55,546 nucleotides of DNA from Pseudomonadota bacterium (GTDB lineage Bacteria; SZUA-182; DTGQ01). The position numbers and the translations under genes are program-made. Of the stretch, positions 40,373 to 50,626 are shown piece by piece. Below the pieces are notes generated by a model, which was given only the letters and a program-made list of their open reading frames with translations, searched no databases and was not told the origin of the DNA. The stretch lies in the NCBI GenBank assembly GCA_030625085.1, contig DAOURK010000012.1, forward strand, positions 1-55,546, read 5' to 3'. How positions within the stretch are numbered: position 1 is the first letter of the stretch; the number at the start of each line of letters is the position of its first letter.

Positions 40373-41755
40373 TTAGAAATAAAATATCAATGAAGACAAA
40401 AGGGAATGCTGCCGAATTTTCCCTTTTATTATTTTTAAACCAGTATTTACATCACCAGTCGGCACTTCACTGATAACATCACCGAATCGATATTGATATG
40501 AAAAATCTATAGCTAGTCGATTAGTGACAATTCCAAAACCAAAACTCACTCCATAAAAATCCTCTGGTGCACCTATAGATGGTTCGGGATCGTAAAATGC
40601 CCCACATCGCAAGGGGAGTATAATTTTATTCATTATCTTTGCATATTCCACTCCCAAGCGTATTGTATTCGTAGGGTCTTTATGAGGCACAAGCCCATCT
40701 GCCCCAACGAAAGGGCCTACTTCTTCCCCGTTTGCGTTGGTAATGATATAATCTTGCCATTCGGTTCGAGTTATATCTCCCGCTAGGGTCCAAGAATCCC
40801 CAATTCGAAAAGAAAAGCCCAGCCCATAGGCAGCAGGGAAATCAATTTGATAGCTTCCTTCGCCAATAGGGTCATATAGATTTCCATTTGGGTCTTGGTG
40901 TTGATTTGGTCTTCGTAAAATCGTATATTCACATTTTACTCTGGCTCTAAACGGTGTTTTATATACACAACCCAATTGAAACTGCGGAGTAATTTTCCAT
41001 AATAACCCCAAAGTCCAATTTTCCGCTCGAAAATCTTTGTAATGTAAATTGACTTCTTTTGTGCTCCAAATACTATTATCCGGCTGATTTGTCCATATCT
41101 CTTTTCGCTCGCATATCCATTGACTTTTCCCTGTAATATGATCAGACCAAATATTATAAGTACAACCAAAATATAAACCGGGCATAAATTCTACAGCCAT
41201 GGCTGGAGAAAATGTATATAGAGAACCTTCCTGATGAAGATATAATTTTTGAGTACGGTTTCTTTTTTCAATATGATTTACAGCTTCAAACTCAAAAAAG
41301 TAATCTTTCTCAAAATCGTACTCTCGACTAAAATCAAATAATTTTTGATAATTAAGCGAAAAAAATACATTTCTTCGCCATATATTTCTAGCATACGCAA
41401 TACTCAAATAATTGAGATCAAGAGAGGAAATGCTACAAGTTCCTGTATTGGTAATAAAATCATTACCACTTACTCTCTGAGAAAAATAACTCCCCACTAC
41501 AGACACTTCGGGTTTCTGCAATTGACCCAGCCCACCGGGGTTCCATGAAGCTGCTGTAGCATCGTCAGCAACGGCAATAAAAGTGCTCCCCATACCTTGT
41601 GCTCTGGCCCCTGACCCTACGGAAACTGGAGGAGAGGTAGACCAAAGATCCCCTTCAAAGGCAGCCGGCAAAGAATATACCTTACCCGGATATAAAAAAA
41701 TAATTCCCATGATTAAACAAATTATGAACCGGATAATTAATTTCTCCTGTTTCAT
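40373..41755 (-). CDS. PorV/FadL-like outer-membrane beta-barrel protein
   Basis: From ATG 41755 (AAGG 7 nt upstream) the product is 460 aa with a signal peptide (KLIIRFIICLIMGIIFLYPG...VYSLPA) and a PorV/UPF0164-type opening: GSGARAQGMGSTFIAVADDATAASWNPGGL. The rest alternates hydrophobic and polar residues as in a beta-barrel and ends in aromatic residues (SLIFYF), a typical outer-membrane insertion signal. The frame extends to 41923 but the added residues overlap the end of the upstream gene and precede the signal peptide. Such proteins often serve as export partners for surface proteins; the neighbour at 37529-40000 is a candidate client. Confidence 0.85.
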   Translation of the reverse strand: MKQEKLIIRFIICLIMGIIFLYPGKVYSLPAAFEGDLWSTSPPVSVGSGARAQGMGSTFIAVADDATAASWNPGGLGQLQKPEVSVVGSYFSQRVSGNDFITNTGTCSISSLDLNYLSIAYARNIWRRNVFFSLNYQKLFDFSREYDFEKDYFFEFEAVNHIEKRNRTQKLYLHQEGSLYTFSPAMAVEFMPGLYFGCTYNIWSDHITGKSQWICERKEIWTNQPDNSIWSTKEVNLHYKDFRAENWTLGLLWKITPQFQLGCVYKTPFRARVKCEYTILRRPNQHQDPNGNLYDPIGEGSYQIDFPAAYGLGFSFRIGDSWTLAGDITRTEWQDYIITNANGEEVGPFVGADGLVPHKDPTNTIRLGVEYAKIMNKIILPLRCGAFYDPEPSIGAPEDFYGVSFGFGIVTNRLAIDFSYQYRFGDVISEVPTGDVNTGLKIIKGKIRQHSLLSSLIFYF

Positions 41756-41846: not shown

Positions 41847-43889
41847 TTACTTGGTAATAACATGATCTTTAATCCGAATGTCCTCTTTTGGCTGAAGCAA
41901 ATTTGCCTCGGAGATTTGCTCAAACACCTTCAAAATTTTTGCCTCCCCCAGAAGATGGGGCTTTTGTTCCAACACCTGGCGAGTTTCAGGGTCTTTGATG
42001 CTCTCTTTAGGCCTAAAAACAATATATTTGGTAAATTCTTTAATATTCTTTTCTTTTCCAAGATTGACCAAGATATTTTGGCCTTCCTTTTCAATAATCA
42101 TCCCTTCCAACAGAGGAAAACTATGTTTAAATTTTAATCCCAAGCCCTCCAGCAAAGATTTCACATTTGTCGGGTCTTCAAATCCATATACATCCTGCGT
42201 ATCTAAAATTACCGAGGTTTCCGTATCAATAAGCCGGGCTACTATCTCTATAAAACCTTTATTTTCATAAATACTCCCCGCCAAAATAGATTCTGCCGAA
42301 ACCAATTTTCCAATTTCCAAGGGAGAAAAATGGGGTTCATCAGGGTTTTCTCCTTCAAAACGTTGAACAATCCGATCAATTCGTTCACGATCCACCACGC
42401 GGAACCTTTTTTGCCCAACAAAGGCATGAATCAGGTGATCGGCAACAAATTGTTGATTATCAACGTCTTCCCCGCGATATTTGAAAGGAATGATAGCCAC
42501 ACTCATGCGGGAACCAATCCGATAAACCGGATTAATTGTTCGTTCTATCTCTAAGGTTTTTATCCTTTCATTCCCTGAAAGGTCTATGGCTTTGATGGTA
42601 ATGATGTTTTTCCCCGGTTGAAGCTTTAAGGTGTAATTAAAATAAATCTTTTTCCCCTCCTGAGAGAGAATGGACTCCTCATTCACTAAAAGATCCTGAA
42701 TCCCTTTAAGATCATGAACTTCACCGCTTATAAATAGGGTTTCCCAATCGACAACTAACTTATCAGTGTTCGGGGTGTCAAGGACAATAGTAGGAGGATG
42801 AGAGTCAGCATGAGAAAGTCCTGCTAAATTTAATGAGGCTACTCGAAGCTGCCGGTTTAAACCGGCTTTCTCCGGCAAATAATCGGGGATTCGAATTTGA
42901 CCTTTAACCCTATTACCCAACAGATCTTCAGCCACAAAAATAAGAGAGTTCGAATGTTTGGGCAATGCATATCGAAAGGAAAATTTACCTCTATTATCCA
43001 AAAGAGGGACTGTCTGTTTATCAATTTGGAAAATCTTAATACCGCATAAATCATCTACATGACCCTCAATCTGAATCTCTTCAAAGGCGGTTGGGCTATC
43101 AGCAACCCGAGTGGTGAAAAAATCGTCAATATAAAGTAAGGGGGCCTGTCGATCAGCAATCAATCGTATGCTCTCTTCTGTATCATGTCCAACTAAATCT
43201 TTGGCTACAATCCGAATTTCATTAAGCCCTTGATGTAGCGAAAGGATTGTTTTAAAAGCAATATCAGGTTGGGCAAGTTCGCAGGGATAAGGGAAATCAT
43301 TGATAGTGATCTTTTCTACGAACCAATCATCCTGTGCTTTTCCCTCTATAGTAGCCTCAAATCCACTGACGAATTGCTGATCATCATGAGAAGTTATCCA
43401 AATCTTGGGTGGAGTTGTATCTTGCCGGGTTTGACGAAGATTTGCTTCTCGAGCGCGATTTAGATAGTATTTTGCCTTAGCCGAAGGATAATAGGAAAGG
43501 GAAAAAGAAAGTTCTTGAATGGCTTTTTGTAAGTCTCCTGTTTCATAGTAAGCGATCCCTAGCTCTCGGTGAGGAAAATAATCATCTAAAATATGGAGAC
43601 CATAGGTACGCACTCGGCGCTGATCTTGATTTTTTAGCCGAATGGCTTGTTGAAAATCAGCTATGCCCAGAGACCAAAATTCTCCTCCGGAATAGGACGA
43701 CCCTCTTTGGTAAAAATCCCAAAAATTTCCGCCCCAAATACCTTCTGTTCGGCCATATTCACGGCCATCTTTGATTAAAATAGGACCGGATTTAACCGCA
43801 CACCCTACTGGAAGGCTAAACAAAATAAGGGCAATAACAGCCCTGAGTATTACATAGAAAGATGGCGTAAATCCTACGTGTCTATTCAT
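41847..43889 (-). CDS. Probable lipoprotein with TPR, Ig-like and CsgG/FlgT-like domains
   Basis: A 680-aa protein with an N-terminal hydrophobic segment ending LPVGC (C30), a slightly atypical lipobox. Domains: TPR-like helices (about 95-155), two to four Ig-like beta modules (about 165-465), a CsgG-like domain (about 470-580: SVAIIPFKY, RFRVVDRERIDRIVQR, SAESILAGSIYENKG) and a FlgT-C-like end (about 590-680). CsgG domains form secretion pores or bind the cell wall in other systems. The same CsgG-FlgT-C pair occurs in the CHAT gene upstream. It follows that gene by 30 bp. Confidence 0.8.
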   Translation of the reverse strand: MNRHVGFTPSFYVILRAVIALILFSLPVGCAVKSGPILIKDGREYGRTEGIWGGNFWDFYQRGSSYSGGEFWSLGIADFQQAIRLKNQDQRRVRTYGLHILDDYFPHRELGIAYYETGDLQKAIQELSFSLSYYPSAKAKYYLNRAREANLRQTRQDTTPPKIWITSHDDQQFVSGFEATIEGKAQDDWFVEKITINDFPYPCELAQPDIAFKTILSLHQGLNEIRIVAKDLVGHDTEESIRLIADRQAPLLYIDDFFTTRVADSPTAFEEIQIEGHVDDLCGIKIFQIDKQTVPLLDNRGKFSFRYALPKHSNSLIFVAEDLLGNRVKGQIRIPDYLPEKAGLNRQLRVASLNLAGLSHADSHPPTIVLDTPNTDKLVVDWETLFISGEVHDLKGIQDLLVNEESILSQEGKKIYFNYTLKLQPGKNIITIKAIDLSGNERIKTLEIERTINPVYRIGSRMSVAIIPFKYRGEDVDNQQFVADHLIHAFVGQKRFRVVDRERIDRIVQRFEGENPDEPHFSPLEIGKLVSAESILAGSIYENKGFIEIVARLIDTETSVILDTQDVYGFEDPTNVKSLLEGLGLKFKHSFPLLEGMIIEKEGQNILVNLGKEKNIKEFTKYIVFRPKESIKDPETRQVLEQKPHLLGEAKILKVFEQISEANLLQPKEDIRIKDHVITK

Positions 43890-43919
43890 ATTCGAATTCT
43901 CTTTTTGGAGGTTAAAGGT

Positions 43920-46154
43920 TCAATTACGTACTGGTGTCACTATAGGAGTCACTTTCATGCCTGCAACCAAATCTTCAGATCTACCCAGGACTTTCGAATA
44001 GCTATAACCTGACTTTATGTCATTAACCTCAATCTCCCCAACTTTGACATCTTCTTCACTAATAACTTCTCCATTTTGATATATTTTATTATTTTTAATA
44101 ACCTTGAATTTCATTCCTGATTTCAAGCCATGTCTGGCCCCAATATTCAAAATAACATTATCATAATCGACCACGGCTTTAATCTTACCCTGTAATGGAA
44201 AATACCGCTCAATGGCCTCTATGATTTTTTTACTGAGACGATCAGCCATAACGTCTGCTGTTATTGTGCTTCCCCACTCTTCACTAAAGGCAGCCTTCAC
44301 CACTGTAGTTTCATTCTCAATAATACGCATATTAACCTGCAGTGCGGAATCAACTCGGTAAAGGTTGCACGTGTTAAATAGGGTACTTGAAAGCAACTCT
44401 CCCAAACGTAAGGCAGAATCCGAATCAACCAGGTCAGTAGAAGCCAGAGCCAGTTCTTGTAAGACAATATCCAGTTGCTCTCTTTCCAGAACTGTAATTC
44501 GAGGATTATGTTGCAGGTTCTGTATAATTTTATGAATTAAGATGGCTGTATCAGCCTCTTCATTGCTCTTAGCTGTATTGAAAAAAATAGTCAAAGGACG
44601 AGAAGTCCATCTATCAGCAGTCTCCTTTTTCCCGGGCTGCAATTGATAGCTTTTGAGAAGCCCTAGAAAAAATCCACTTACAGAATTCTCATTTGCCCAA
44701 TCGACAGTTAATAATTTATCTGTAGCTTTAACAGCAACAAGATCATTTACGAATAAACCCGATCGAGATAATGACTTTTGGTACTTAGTACTCAAAAAGG
44801 AAAAAAGCACCCCGGCTATAGCGAGTATCCCTATGCTGACTGCTATATATCGGAACCGAAACCAGCACGATTTAGTTACGTCACGTGCCTCCGATTGACT
44901 ATTCCTCTGATATTGTTGTTCCGCCTCTCGACTTTTCCCCATCAATTCTGATGGAGAACGTGTTTTCCATAATACGCCGCTTTGACTCTTTTCTTGAATT
45001 AAGCAATCCGCTTCCGGATTCCATTGAGGATTTGTCGGCAAAGAATTTATGGTAACAGACTGGGGCTCGAACTGCCAATCCTGTTCTGCTACCTCTGCTG
45101 ATCGGGGCTCAAAATATTTGACTGTAGGGTCTCCATAAAGCAAATAGCTGGCCCAAAACACATTCTCTCTGCCATACTTTTCCTTAAGCGCCTGCCGAGC
45201 TGATCGCATGGCTTTGCCAATATTTTGGGAAGCAAAAAGCTGCCGATAAAATTCAACGGCAAAGCTTGTGCTTGGTTTATCCAGTACTTTCCAAAAAGTA
45301 CCTATATAATGCTGAACTCCGGCCAATAGAAAGGCATTGGCCAAACCATAAATTTTTTCTTCCTCTGATGTTTCAACCTGCCATTCTTCAGTAGTTCCAG
45401 ATTGACAAGCGTTGGAAAAAACAAGGGGAGGCAAGGGATTAACCCCGGAAAGTTTGCGGATATCCAAGGCCGTAAATTTTCCATCATCGAGGATCCACCC
45501 GCTGGACGAAGGATCTTTAAGATTATAATCAGCATGGCCGGCATAATGGATGAGATCAAATTGAAGAAGTTTTTTCTTCAGATAATCGATGCTCACTTCA
45601 GAGCTGACCACAGTAATGGACACGGTCTTTAGATTGAATCTCTCCCGAATCCGATTCCCTTCTTCATAGGCTGACTGCAAATCTCCCTTAGGATCGGCAA
45701 TAATTAACATCTTGAAAGGAGGATGGAGTTCTTTTCTGGCGATGCTGGAGATAATCTGTTGAGTCTTAACCATGCGGCCAATATTAAAACGCTCACAAAA
45801 GAATTCTCCTCCCATGTACATCAATTCCCATGGGATCTGAACCAATCGATTATCAATCCTCAGGATAAGGTCTTCAGCAGAAGTATCAGTCAATTCTTTT
45901 TTAATGCGGAGTGGAAAAATTTCGTTATATAAAACCTGCCCTATCTGCTGGAGTTCCTGAAAAATTATAGGAGGGATTTTCCCGTGGCGAGAAACAGAAT
46001 TCAGGAGGTGAAGAAGTTCACCGGATCTGTTTTGCAAGTCATTACTTGGAACCCGGCACTCTTCATAATGGACTACCGTTTGTTCTCCCTCGCTGAGGCT
46101 AATCTCCAGATTTTCAGCTTTTCGAGAAATTTCTAGATACAGCGCATCTTTCAT
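43920..46154 (-). CDS. Membrane-anchored CHAT protease with CsgG/FlgT-like periplasmic part
   Basis: A 744-aa protein. Residues 90-350 are a CHAT (caspase-like) cysteine protease: catalytic His in HYAGH (H207) and Cys in NACQS (C250), with the GTFWKV and ASYLLYGDPT blocks. A linker leads to one membrane segment (about 434-454). The remainder (about 480-744) is CsgG-like (ITVLEREQLDIVLQEL, LRLGELLSSTLF) followed by a FlgT-C-like end (ILNIGARHGLKSGMKFKV). The protease would be cytoplasmic and the CsgG part periplasmic. It lies 29 bp after the anti-sigma gene, so cleavage of a regulator is an attractive guess. Both catalytic residues are intact. Confidence 0.88.
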   Translation of the reverse strand: MKDALYLEISRKAENLEISLSEGEQTVVHYEECRVPSNDLQNRSGELLHLLNSVSRHGKIPPIIFQELQQIGQVLYNEIFPLRIKKELTDTSAEDLILRIDNRLVQIPWELMYMGGEFFCERFNIGRMVKTQQIISSIARKELHPPFKMLIIADPKGDLQSAYEEGNRIRERFNLKTVSITVVSSEVSIDYLKKKLLQFDLIHYAGHADYNLKDPSSSGWILDDGKFTALDIRKLSGVNPLPPLVFSNACQSGTTEEWQVETSEEEKIYGLANAFLLAGVQHYIGTFWKVLDKPSTSFAVEFYRQLFASQNIGKAMRSARQALKEKYGRENVFWASYLLYGDPTVKYFEPRSAEVAEQDWQFEPQSVTINSLPTNPQWNPEADCLIQEKSQSGVLWKTRSPSELMGKSREAEQQYQRNSQSEARDVTKSCWFRFRYIAVSIGILAIAGVLFSFLSTKYQKSLSRSGLFVNDLVAVKATDKLLTVDWANENSVSGFFLGLLKSYQLQPGKKETADRWTSRPLTIFFNTAKSNEEADTAILIHKIIQNLQHNPRITVLEREQLDIVLQELALASTDLVDSDSALRLGELLSSTLFNTCNLYRVDSALQVNMRIIENETTVVKAAFSEEWGSTITADVMADRLSKKIIEAIERYFPLQGKIKAVVDYDNVILNIGARHGLKSGMKFKVIKNNKIYQNGEVISEEDVKVGEIEVNDIKSGYSYSKVLGRSEDLVAGMKVTPIVTPVRN

Positions 46155-46183: not shown

Positions 46184-46897
46184 TCAGGATGCTCTCCGCA
46201 GATCCAACCGAACTTCACCTAATTCTTTATCCTCAAACAAGACCTTAATGAGATATTCCCTGAGTTTCAAATAAAAGATAGCCTCGCTCTCCTCGACTGA
46301 AGAAAGTTCTTTACCCTCAGAATAAAGGGCCAGACGAGTGTCTGTTAAGGGCAGATGATTAACAGGGTCTGAAGTATTCAGGATGACTTTGTAAGCATCA
46401 TTAATACACTCGATATGAACATCCATCTTCAACCCCTCAAATTCTTTGGAAATACTAACAAAATCATATAATTGATCATGATTAGCCCAATTCTCTTGCC
46501 CCCGAGCAGGTTGCAAGGCTGGTGCCGGAGCCAATAAATCTCCAGTATTTTTAATGATCTTAATCGCTTTTTTGGTAGCGGTGAGGACAATTTCCAAAAC
46601 TCTGTGAGACCCTCCGAAAATCATTTGCTTAGTTTTATCTATAACTCGCTTTGGCACCTCAAAGGATTCAGTTACACTCAATCCATCAAGGATGAAAAGC
46701 CTATCACAACAAAACCGGCAACCCACAAGATGCTTATCAATTTCCGTTCTCTCTGTTTTAGACAAGGTCCCCCGATAATACTCTTCCAATCTTTCTTCCG
46801 CCACACAATCAGAAGCACGCTGAGGCAACTCACCCTTTTTCCGGGAAAGGCCGATTCTGCTCAGCATCCCGACCAATTTTTCAGTTTCTTTTTCCAT
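46184..46897 (-). CDS. Zinc-finger anti-sigma factor, soluble
   Basis: A 237-aa protein with an anti-sigma zinc-finger (ZAS) pattern: a leading cysteine in SDCVAEERLEEYYRGTLS and then HLVGCRFCCDRLF (Hx3Cx2C) at about residues 57-65. No membrane segment is visible, so it is cytosolic, unlike many anti-sigma factors. The C-terminal ~90 residues form a beta-rich region (VHIECINDAYKVILNTSD, EAIFYLKLREYLIKV) that I do not recognise and that could sense a signal or be cleaved. AAGGAG precedes the ATG. It follows the sigma gene by 91 bp and precedes the CHAT gene by 29 bp. Confidence 0.82.
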   Translation of the reverse strand: MEKETEKLVGMLSRIGLSRKKGELPQRASDCVAEERLEEYYRGTLSKTERTEIDKHLVGCRFCCDRLFILDGLSVTESFEVPKRVIDKTKQMIFGGSHRVLEIVLTATKKAIKIIKNTGDLLAPAPALQPARGQENWANHDQLYDFVSISKEFEGLKMDVHIECINDAYKVILNTSDPVNHLPLTDTRLALYSEGKELSSVEESEAIFYLKLREYLIKVLFEDKELGEVRLDLRRAS

Positions 46898-48341: not shown

Positions 48342-49100
48342 ATGAAAAAAGGTATTTATATACTCCCTAATTTATTTACATTAGGAAACATGCTTTGCGG
48401 ATTTTATTCAATTATATCAACCATTGAAGGCCGCTTTCACCATGCGGCTATAGCTATATTTATAGCAGCCCTGGCTGATGGACTGGATGGGAAAGTCGCC
48501 CGGCTTACCGGAACATGCAGCCGGTTTGGGGTAGAATTTGATTCCCTGGCTGATTTACTCTCTTTCGGCATAGCTCCAGCTCTTCTCATTTATATTTGGG
48601 CTCTTCGCCCATATCAAAGAATTGGCTGGCTAGCCGCCTTTTTATTCGTTATTTGTGGAGCTTTACGCCTGGCTCGATTTAATGTTCAAGTGTATACCTC
48701 TGAAAATAAATATTTTACCGGCCTACCCATCCCGGCAGCGGCGGCTACTATTGCTTCCTTTGTTTTGCTGCACCAATTTCTTTTTAAGGGAGAAGGCAAT
48801 AAGCCGGTTTTTATTGCCGCCCTGGCTTATGTTTTGGCCTTTTTGATGGTTAGTAATATTAAATACCGAAGTTTTAAACATTGGAAACTCCGAGAGCGAA
48901 AACCCTTTTATTTTTTGGTATTAATTGCTTTACTCCTTCTGGTTATTTTAGCCCAACCCCAAATCATGGTCTTTATTTTAATATGCGGTTATGTACTTTC
49001 CGGTATAGGAGAAAAACTATTTATACATAAGCCCAAACCCTTTACAGCCAAAAAAAATTACCGCCCCGGATTCCCCTTTCATAAAAGAAGAAAAGAATGA
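48342..49100 (+). CDS. pssA: CDP-diacylglycerol-serine O-phosphatidyltransferase
   Basis: A 252-aa integral membrane enzyme with the CDP-alcohol phosphotransferase motif [12 protein letters not shown]...[14 protein letters not shown], matching D(x2)DG(x2)AR(x8)G(x3)D(x3)D. It makes phosphatidylserine, the precursor of phosphatidylethanolamine. About six to eight hydrophobic segments and a basic C-terminal tail. It starts the leucine cluster; its stop overlaps the leuA ATG (ATGA). Confidence 0.95.
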
Positions 49101-50626
49101 GTCAGGTCATCATATTTGACACCACCTTACGGGATGGTGAACAGTCCCCCGGAGCCAGCCTGAACAAAGATGAAAAATTGATTATTGCGGAACAATTGGC
49201 CAGGCTCCAAGTCGATGTGATCGAAGCCGGATTCCCCATAGCTTCGGAAGGAGATTTTCAGGCAGTTAAGGAAATCGCTCAAAAAATATCCGGCCCTATT
49301 ATAGCCGGATTAGCACGAGCTACGACCAAAGATATTGACAGAGCGTGGGAAGCAGTTAAATATGCTCAAAAACCCCGCATCCATACTTTTATTGCCACTT
49401 CGGATATTCACCTAAAATATAAACTTAAAAAAAGCCGGGAGCAGGTCCTGCAACAGGCCGCAGAAGCAGTACAATACGCTAAAAAATATACCCCCGATGT
49501 GGAATTTTCTGCAGAGGACGCTTTTCGATCAGACCGTGATTATTTATGCCAAGTAGTTACCGAAGCCATTGAAAAAGGAGCAACAACCATTAATATTCCC
49601 GATACAGTAGGCTATGCCATCCCTTCAGAGGTGAGGGCATTAATTGATTACCTTTTTGATAAAGTTCCGAACATCACAGATGCCCGTATCAGTGTTCATT
49701 GCCACAACGATCTTGGATTAGCTGTAGCCAATTCTCTGGCTGCCATACAAAGCGGTGTAAGGCAAATTGAATGCACTATTAACGGCCTGGGTGAAAGGGC
49801 CGGCAATGCAGCCTTAGAAGAAGTTGTTATGTCTCTAATAACGAGAAAAGATTTGTTTAAAATCGACACTAAGATACAAACTCAAAAAATCATGAAAACC
49901 AGCCGTATGGTCAGTCACCTGACCGGTTTGGTTGTTCAACGCAACAAAGCCATAGTAGGAGAAAATGCCTTTGCCCATGAAGCAGGAATTCATCAGGATG
50001 GATTTTTAAAGGAAAAAACTACCTATGAGATAATGACCCCCGAAACCATCGGGCTCAAAGAAAGTAAGCTTGTTTTAGGCAAACATTCCGGCAGACATGC
50101 CTTCTCGGATAGACTCAAGGACATAGGGTATAGCCTCGATGCGGAAGAATTAGAGAAGGCTTTTACTAAATTCAAGGACTTGGCTGATAAGAAAAAAGAA
50201 ATATTCGATGAAGACCTTCAATTGATTATTGAAGAAGGTATACATCAAATTCCTGAAGAATATACACTGGATTACATTCAGATCAGCAGTGGAGATAAAA
50301 CAATCCCAACCTCAACAGTGGGACTTCGACGAGTTGACGGCCAAATGTTTTTGGATGCCTCATATGGAGATGGTCCTGTTGATGCCACGTATAAATGCAT
50401 TGATCAAATTACCGGCATTTCGGGAAAATTGCTCAGTTATTCGATTCAATCCGCTACCGGCGGTAAAGATGCCTTAGGGAGTGTTTACATCCAAGTTAAG
50501 TTTGATGGTCAAATTATTACCGGGCGAAGTTCTTCTCCGGATATTATGATTGCCAGCGCAAATGCTTACTTAAATGCTATTAATAAGGTAATTTATGTAA
50601 ATCAAAAAAAAAATAAAAAGGACTAA
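49097..50626 (+). CDS. leuA: 2-isopropylmalate synthase
   Basis: A 509-aa enzyme condensing acetyl-CoA and 2-oxoisovalerate, the first step of leucine synthesis. [19 protein letters not shown], the metal HCHNDLGLA and [14 protein letters not shown], and [11 protein letters not shown] are all present in the catalytic domain. The C-terminal ~120 residues form the LeuA dimer domain that mediates feedback inhibition by leucine. Starts within the end of pssA by ATGA overlap; leuC follows after 6 bp. Confidence 0.98.

Follow-up and report, generated by a model that had tools for sequence, protein, structure and literature searches.

A CHAT protein and a neighbouring lipoprotein share a FlgT-like tail in an apparently undescribed operon with sigma and anti-sigma factor genes

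The window analysed here is a 55,546-nucleotide stretch of a Pseudomonadota bacterium genome (assembly GCA_030625085.1, contig DAOURK010000012.1), and it contains an operon whose genes encode, in order, a sigma factor, a soluble zinc-finger anti-sigma factor that we call ZAS, a protein in which a CHAT protease domain is followed by a membrane span and a tail, a lipoprotein that ends in a tail of the same kind, a FadL/PorV-like barrel and the secreted protein P0006 (Table 1). A preliminary description of this DNA had proposed that the CHAT protein and the lipoprotein are neighbours that share a C-terminal tail, CsgG-type and then FlgT-C-like, behind different fronts. Both genes lie on the minus strand where that description placed them, and according to Pfam their fronts do differ, being a protease in the first and TPR and immunoglobulin (Ig)-like in the second. 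We find that the two tails are homologous, and that the operon around them probably relays a signal from the cell envelope to its own sigma factor through a protease that crosses the membrane.

Within the genome of the window, the CHAT tail retrieves the lipoprotein tail by tblastn (E 1.4e-4), and alignments built separately from 26 CHAT tails and 28 lipoprotein tails match one another with an hhalign probability of 99.9% (E 2e-31, 194 columns, 21% identity). As the window's two proteins by themselves give only weak Pfam matches for their tails, relatives were required to make this case. Single CHAT tails match CsgG in 19/26 instances, LpoB in 13/26 and FlgT_C in 9/26, and single lipoprotein tails do so in 23/28, 17/28 and 1/28, respectively; the tail profiles in turn match CsgG, LpoB, TsaP and FlgT chains, in agreement with the families first suggested for them. 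A full CsgG domain with its membrane-inserting barrel was not found in the window's proteins, which fall below the Pfam cut-off and whose match spans only about 60 residues.

AlphaFold2 models of the window's two tails, each predicted singly, have a nearly identical order of elements, and unrelated folds were not seen. The model of the CHAT tail reached a predicted local distance difference test score (pLDDT) of 83.1 and a predicted template modelling score (pTM) of 0.72, and that of the lipoprotein tail a pLDDT of 89.9 and a pTM of 0.81. FlgT is the best solved match of both, in entry 3w1e for the CHAT tail (E 2.1e-11) and 8z5n for the lipoprotein tail (E 1.7e-11), followed by TolB and, further down, by LpoB, GNA1162, PelC and CsgG. 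Whole-length template modelling scores are low because the two subdomains differ in their placement, so the match is to a domain pair and not to a rigid copy. On these models, the shared tail is best called a FlgT middle and C-terminal domain pair, that is, a TolB-N/CsgG/LpoB fold followed by FlgT_C. The N-terminal domain and the flagellar context of FlgT are absent; the tails are instead preceded by the membrane span and CHAT domain or by Ig-like domains, and no flagellar gene was found in the operon. FlgT, the N-terminal domain of TolB, LpoB, CsgG, PelC and TsaP, whose C-terminal part is shared with the tails, have both this fold and an envelope location in common with the pair, but in none of them does a membrane span connect the fold to a protease in the cytoplasm, as is the case for the CHAT tail.

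Table 1. Genes of the operon in the window and features of their products
Feature	Position	Strand	Basis
ECF (extracytoplasmic function)-type sigma-70 family factor P0004, 206 aa	46989..47609	-	NCBIfam TIGR02937 55.8 bits, cut-off 42.9; conserved first operon gene in relatives
Soluble zinc-finger anti-sigma factor (ZAS) P0003, 237 aa	46184..46897	-	Pfam zf-HC2 22.9 bits, cut-off 22.2
Codon of the invariant Arg132 of ZAS (LQPAR-GQ), proposed cleavage point	46502..46504	-	32/32 in first family alignment
CHAT receptor-protease P0002 (putative), 744 aa	43920..46154	-	Pfam CHAT E 2e-38; Peptidase_C50 (separase) E 9.6e-7
CHAT protease domain, residues 70-342 (His207, Cys250, putative S1 Glu110, Asp292)	45129..45947	-	Pfam CHAT
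Codon of Arg399 (KTR-SPSEL) in the CHAT-membrane linker, proposed self-cleavage point	44958..44960	-	TRS/TRP kept in close relatives; linker motif enrichment
Single transmembrane segment, residues ~437-455	44790..44846	-	Hydropathy; positive-inside rule
Periplasmic tail of the CHAT protein, TolB-N/CsgG/LpoB-like and FlgT_C-like	43923..44591	-	Tail profiles, Pfam, model
Outer-membrane lipoprotein P0001, 680 aa (lipobox LPVGC, Cys30; TPR, Ig-like Glucodextran_B domains, tail)	41847..43889	-	Pfam; Cys30 conservation
Lipoprotein tail, homologous to the CHAT tail	41850..42500	-	Tail profiles, Pfam, model
FadL/PorV-like outer-membrane barrel P0005	40373..41923	-	Pfam Toluene_X E 5.9e-13; recurs in or next to operon
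Secreted protein with carboxypeptidase-regulatory-like domains P0006	37529..40000	-	Pfam CarboxypepD_reg E 2.5e-29

The operon is widespread and, it appears, undescribed. A protein search of contigs with P0002 alone gave no match, and an alignment-based search found relatives. The genome of the window and five relatives carry up to several such loci each, and a scan of genome contigs identified 43 loci, a few of which lie outside the groups labelled Nitrospirae, Thermodesulfobacteriota or Deltaproteobacteria, Omnitrophota and Schekmanbacteria; the phylum-wide searches covered few genomes, these phyla being small in the collection. In relatives the sigma factor gene comes first and the ZAS gene second; the CHAT gene follows, its product often beginning with a class III cyclase domain and continuing after CHAT into span and tail, and genes for the barrel and the tail lipoprotein complete the series. 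Among CHAT genes with enough downstream sequence, a tail lipoprotein gene lies within 6 kb downstream on the same strand for 25/32 of those encoding a tail and 0/8 of those that do not (Fisher p 8e-5). At 20 loci, the distance matrices of the two tails also correlate beyond what the CHAT domain and the lipoprotein N-terminus account for (partial r 0.45, 0/999 permutations). Linkage and co-variation are consistent with contact, though no proof of it, and they indirectly support the view that the two tails are partners. A third tail-encoding gene was observed at five loci (L021:2677-3978, L026:11971-13650, L033:12992-14614, L046:14054-15166 and L060:10931-11755), in some cases with an Ig-like domain, and since it follows in several operons, three tails may assemble.

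FlgT, PelC, CsgG and TsaP are known formers of rings or oligomers. The tails could accordingly span the periplasm as a hetero-oligomeric ring or bridge, similar to the H-ring of FlgT, with a mainly structural or secretory role to which the protease is accessory. The ranking of FlgT as the best match of both tails, ahead of TolB, the PelC dodecamer, CsgG and LpoB, speaks for such an assembly, as do the part shared with TsaP of the pilus machine and the FadL/PorV-like barrel nearby. We nevertheless consider this unlikely, as the operon begins with genes for a sigma and an anti-sigma factor and holds an intact protease or cyclase, and as sigma-ZAS-CHAT units without tails exist (L050, L063, L065, L067 and L077), which points to a regulatory core that is independent of the tails.

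The protease itself bears both expected catalytic residues. The whole domain matches Pfam CHAT (PF12770) at 132.9 bits (cut-off 24), and across the family His207, Cys250 and Glu110, the last within a PWE motif, are conserved in 43/43 sequences and Asp292 in 42/43. The Peptidase_C50 profile covers CHAT residues 89-208 only, with Glu110 inside the match and Asp292 placed by order only. In a homology model of Caenorhabditis elegans separase, the P1 Arg is bound by Glu917, adjacent to Trp916, and by Asp1082, and separases cleave after (D/E)xxR and also cleave themselves (PMC4626109); a P1 Arg is listed for separase, paracaspase and gingipain R (PMC4357240). Separase (C50) and other Arg-specific clan CD peptidases have the catalytic His and Cys, and apparently also the PWE motif and a second acidic residue, in common with the CHAT protein, which we infer to be a separase-like, Arg-specific cysteine protease; this specificity would fit both the pocket residues of CHAT and an invariant Arg of ZAS. 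A P1 Arg and self-cleavage beside the protease domain, as in separase, would be expected here too, whereas the CHAT protein differs from separase in being bacterial and membrane-anchored. It has no signal peptide by inspection and one span by hydropathy, and the positive-inside rule, applied to 31 relatives, gave an N-inside topology (K+R 3.4 versus 2.2, p 0.001). The protease is therefore cytoplasmic, and only the tail is periplasmic.

ZAS consists of a zf-HC2 domain, a variable linker and a C-terminal beta domain, and no membrane span was found in it. Its zinc motif, H-x3-C-x2-C with an upstream Cys (C31, H56, C60, C63), is conserved at 94-97%, 25/29 family members match zf-HC2, and the family profile matches the structures of RsiW, DdvA and ChrR. 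Resemblance to the zinc-finger anti-sigma domain of the DdvS/DdvA system of Myxococcus xanthus is limited to a short zinc-finger match. ZAS and sigma genes are adjacent in the loci, and ZAS is predicted from its sequence to bind and inhibit the neighbouring sigma factor. Only two columns are fully invariant among 32 ZAS sequences: one is Tyr215, within the C-terminal beta domain, and the other is Arg132, which lies in the variable linker and is followed by Gly or Ser in 24/32. In 18 further sequences, mostly from distant phyla, the Arg is kept in all soluble two-domain ZAS; in that of L063 it is shifted by one column in the alignment and reads VLR-T. The proteins of L144-L147 match ZAS in the zinc finger only and have another architecture, with the Arg absent in L145 and L147 and present in an unrelated context in L144 and L146. 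A solved CHAT protein of 991 residues (PDB 8rot_B / 8rw5) has an N-terminus that aligns with the zinc finger of ZAS (E 0.037 against the family profile), and 8rot_B is possibly a natural ZAS-CHAT fusion.

The motif [VATLI]R[GS], whose letters were written from ZAS, was then counted elsewhere against 1000 shuffles. It occurs in 13/21 linkers between cyclase and CHAT, compared with 3.5 in shuffled sequences (3.65-fold, 0/1000 shuffles), and in 17/33 CHAT-membrane linkers, compared with 5.4 (3.0-fold, 0/1000 shuffles). No excess was seen in periplasmic linkers (8/31 versus 9.8 shuffled) or, by the same count, in tails, CHAT, cyclase, sigma factor, barrel or lipoprotein. A narrower motif for the CHAT-membrane linkers, TR[GSA], was rejected in favour of the ZAS-derived one because it holds in cyclase-free members only; cyclase-bearing members have LR[GS] or VR[GS]. 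The CHAT proteins that begin with a class III adenylate/guanylate cyclase-like domain (L021, L026, L033, L044-L046, L048, L049, L053-L055, L057, L058, L060, L061, L064, L068, L069, L073, L075 and L139) carry R-[GSA] in their linker in nearly all cases. Because no neighbouring sigma or ZAS genes are seen at roughly half of the loci concerned, the cyclase may be the output.

Conservation of Arg132 can be read in another way, namely that ZAS is inactivated uncut, for instance by CHAT binding or by the product of the cyclase, and that the Arg is part of a surface for sigma binding or dimerisation. A residue of that kind would be just as invariant, and the beta domain has an invariant residue of its own in Tyr215. 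This explanation seems to us quite unlikely, given that the Arg sits between the domains in the stretch that varies most, also in length, that its short motif is found again in unrelated linkers of the protease, and that transmembrane-type zinc-finger anti-sigma factors without this ZAS linker (L145-L147) do not keep the motif.

We think it probable that the operon encodes a transmembrane receptor-protease relay in which an envelope signal leads to release of the sigma factor through cleavage of ZAS by CHAT. The lipoprotein, which bears TPR and Ig-like domains, would sense a condition of the periplasm or outer membrane, probably in concert with the FadL/PorV-like barrel. The lipoprotein tail would then meet that of the CHAT protein, as the shared fold, linkage and co-variation suggest, and this contact would activate the cytoplasmic protease. 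CHAT, whose catalytic and putative S1 residues point to Arg specificity, would cut ZAS after Arg132 in the linker, ending the hold of ZAS on the sigma factor and setting the latter free. It may also cut its own membrane linker at R399 and, in relatives, the linker to the N-terminal cyclase, which would thereby be freed or switched. Such a relay is the likely purpose of the tail pair because of the sigma factor and ZAS encoded upstream, the conserved Arg sites and the membrane span, which leaves the protease on the cytoplasmic side.

Several points weigh against this relay. Of the CHAT genes whose upstream sequence is long enough, approximately 15, mostly cyclase fusions, have no adjacent ZAS gene. 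The S1 assignment is inferred from a published homology model of separase, with the equivalence of D292 based on order only, and the invariant Arg of ZAS could be needed for folding or for binding of the sigma factor. The shuffle comparison ignores the kinship of the sequences, and the linkers had already been seen when the motif was defined, even though its letters came from ZAS. For Csx29, the one CHAT protein with a known anti-sigma substrate, the available part of the published account describes no requirement for a P1 Arg (PMC10028731). Finally, a solved CHAT protein with a ZAS-like zinc finger exists, and the work behind 8rot/8rw5 may be related.

Craspase, the type III-E CRISPR system to which Csx29 belongs, is the closest precedent. 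There, Csx29 cuts Csx30, an inhibitor of CASP-sigma, at a site in the C-terminal part of the inhibitor, as we propose for ZAS (PMC10028731). In both systems the gene of a CHAT protein accompanies those of an ECF-like sigma factor and its soluble anti-sigma factor, with cleavage of the latter freeing transcription in Craspase. The TPRs of Csx29 read an RNA-guided complex, whereas the CHAT protein here has a membrane span and a FlgT-like tail in the periplasm; and the anti-sigma factor here, unlike Csx30, is a zf-HC2 protein with a proposed invariant Arg site. Craspase includes Cas7-11 and Csx30, and neither had a match among P0001-P0006 in NCBIfam or PADLOC, the search being confined to these genes and not extended to the rest of the genome. 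The relay also differs from regulated proteolysis in the RseA/DegS/RseP and RsiW systems. Those anti-sigma factors are membrane-spanning substrates of periplasmic and intramembrane proteases; here, the membrane is crossed by the protease, and ZAS, its proposed target, is soluble. That CHAT is instead the effector of a defence or cell-death response, with the sigma factor controlling only its expression, is very unlikely: CHAT proteases are common in defence and PADLOC gave one weak match (BovA, E 4e-5), but it gave no defence-system match for the other operon genes, the surroundings are of a housekeeping kind (48342-50626 reads as pssA and leuA-like genes), and the Arg motif within ZAS points to ZAS as the substrate.

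In the open-access literature, which leaves subscription papers uncovered, only the Craspase papers connect CHAT with a sigma factor, and no paper was found that connects CHAT with CsgG or CHAT with both a cyclase and a sigma factor. Few CHAT protease substrates are known to us outside CRISPR, and the operon supplies a candidate with a single predicted cut site. If the relay operates as proposed, it would constitute a direct route across the inner membrane, with one protein sensing in the periplasm and cutting in the cytoplasm, and the Craspase sigma circuit would be part of a wider family of CHAT-controlled sigma factors. We suggest more tentatively, and with somewhat less than even confidence, that these proteins represent a non-CRISPR family of single-chain transmembrane caspase-like receptors of several phyla, in which an envelope signal leads to Arg-specific cleavage of a soluble anti-sigma factor, freeing the sigma factor, and in which self-release from the membrane and from a fused cyclase provides a second output, and that Craspase is an offshoot of an older theme of CHAT, anti-sigma and sigma factors.

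Some variations were observed at more distant loci. In the phylum of genome G281 (L131-L138), ZAS is present in 8/8 genomes, one copy in each, the order is CHAT-sigma-ZAS in the seven with a visible CHAT, and CHAT is shorter; because ZAS is vertically conserved in this phylum, a core role is hinted at. Two loci from distant phyla (L142:5014-9611 and L144:363-4588) encode a sigma factor, a zinc-finger anti-sigma factor with a second finger, and a long protein with CHAT at its C-terminus; the L142 ZAS keeps VRG, and that of L144 seems to be of the membrane-spanning type.

Within the window, the sigma factor scores 31.8 bits against NF041236 (cut-off 100) and is not a member of that family, and no conserved promoter block was seen upstream of its gene in five close relatives. 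A TGA lies in frame between the CHAT and lipoprotein genes, and Cys30 of the lipoprotein is conserved in at least 90% of relatives. The listed TTG start of P0005 overlaps the preceding gene, and a true start near 41755 is likelier. P0006 is accessory and clade-specific, being seen only in the loci of near relatives, and its long N-terminal half, ahead of the carboxypeptidase-regulatory-like domains, is rich in Gly, Tyr, Pro and Ser. Elsewhere in the same genome, L023:705-3026 encodes a CHAT protein of the same subfamily that has neither span nor tail, and whose C-terminal half resembles an AAA-type ATPase by inspection.

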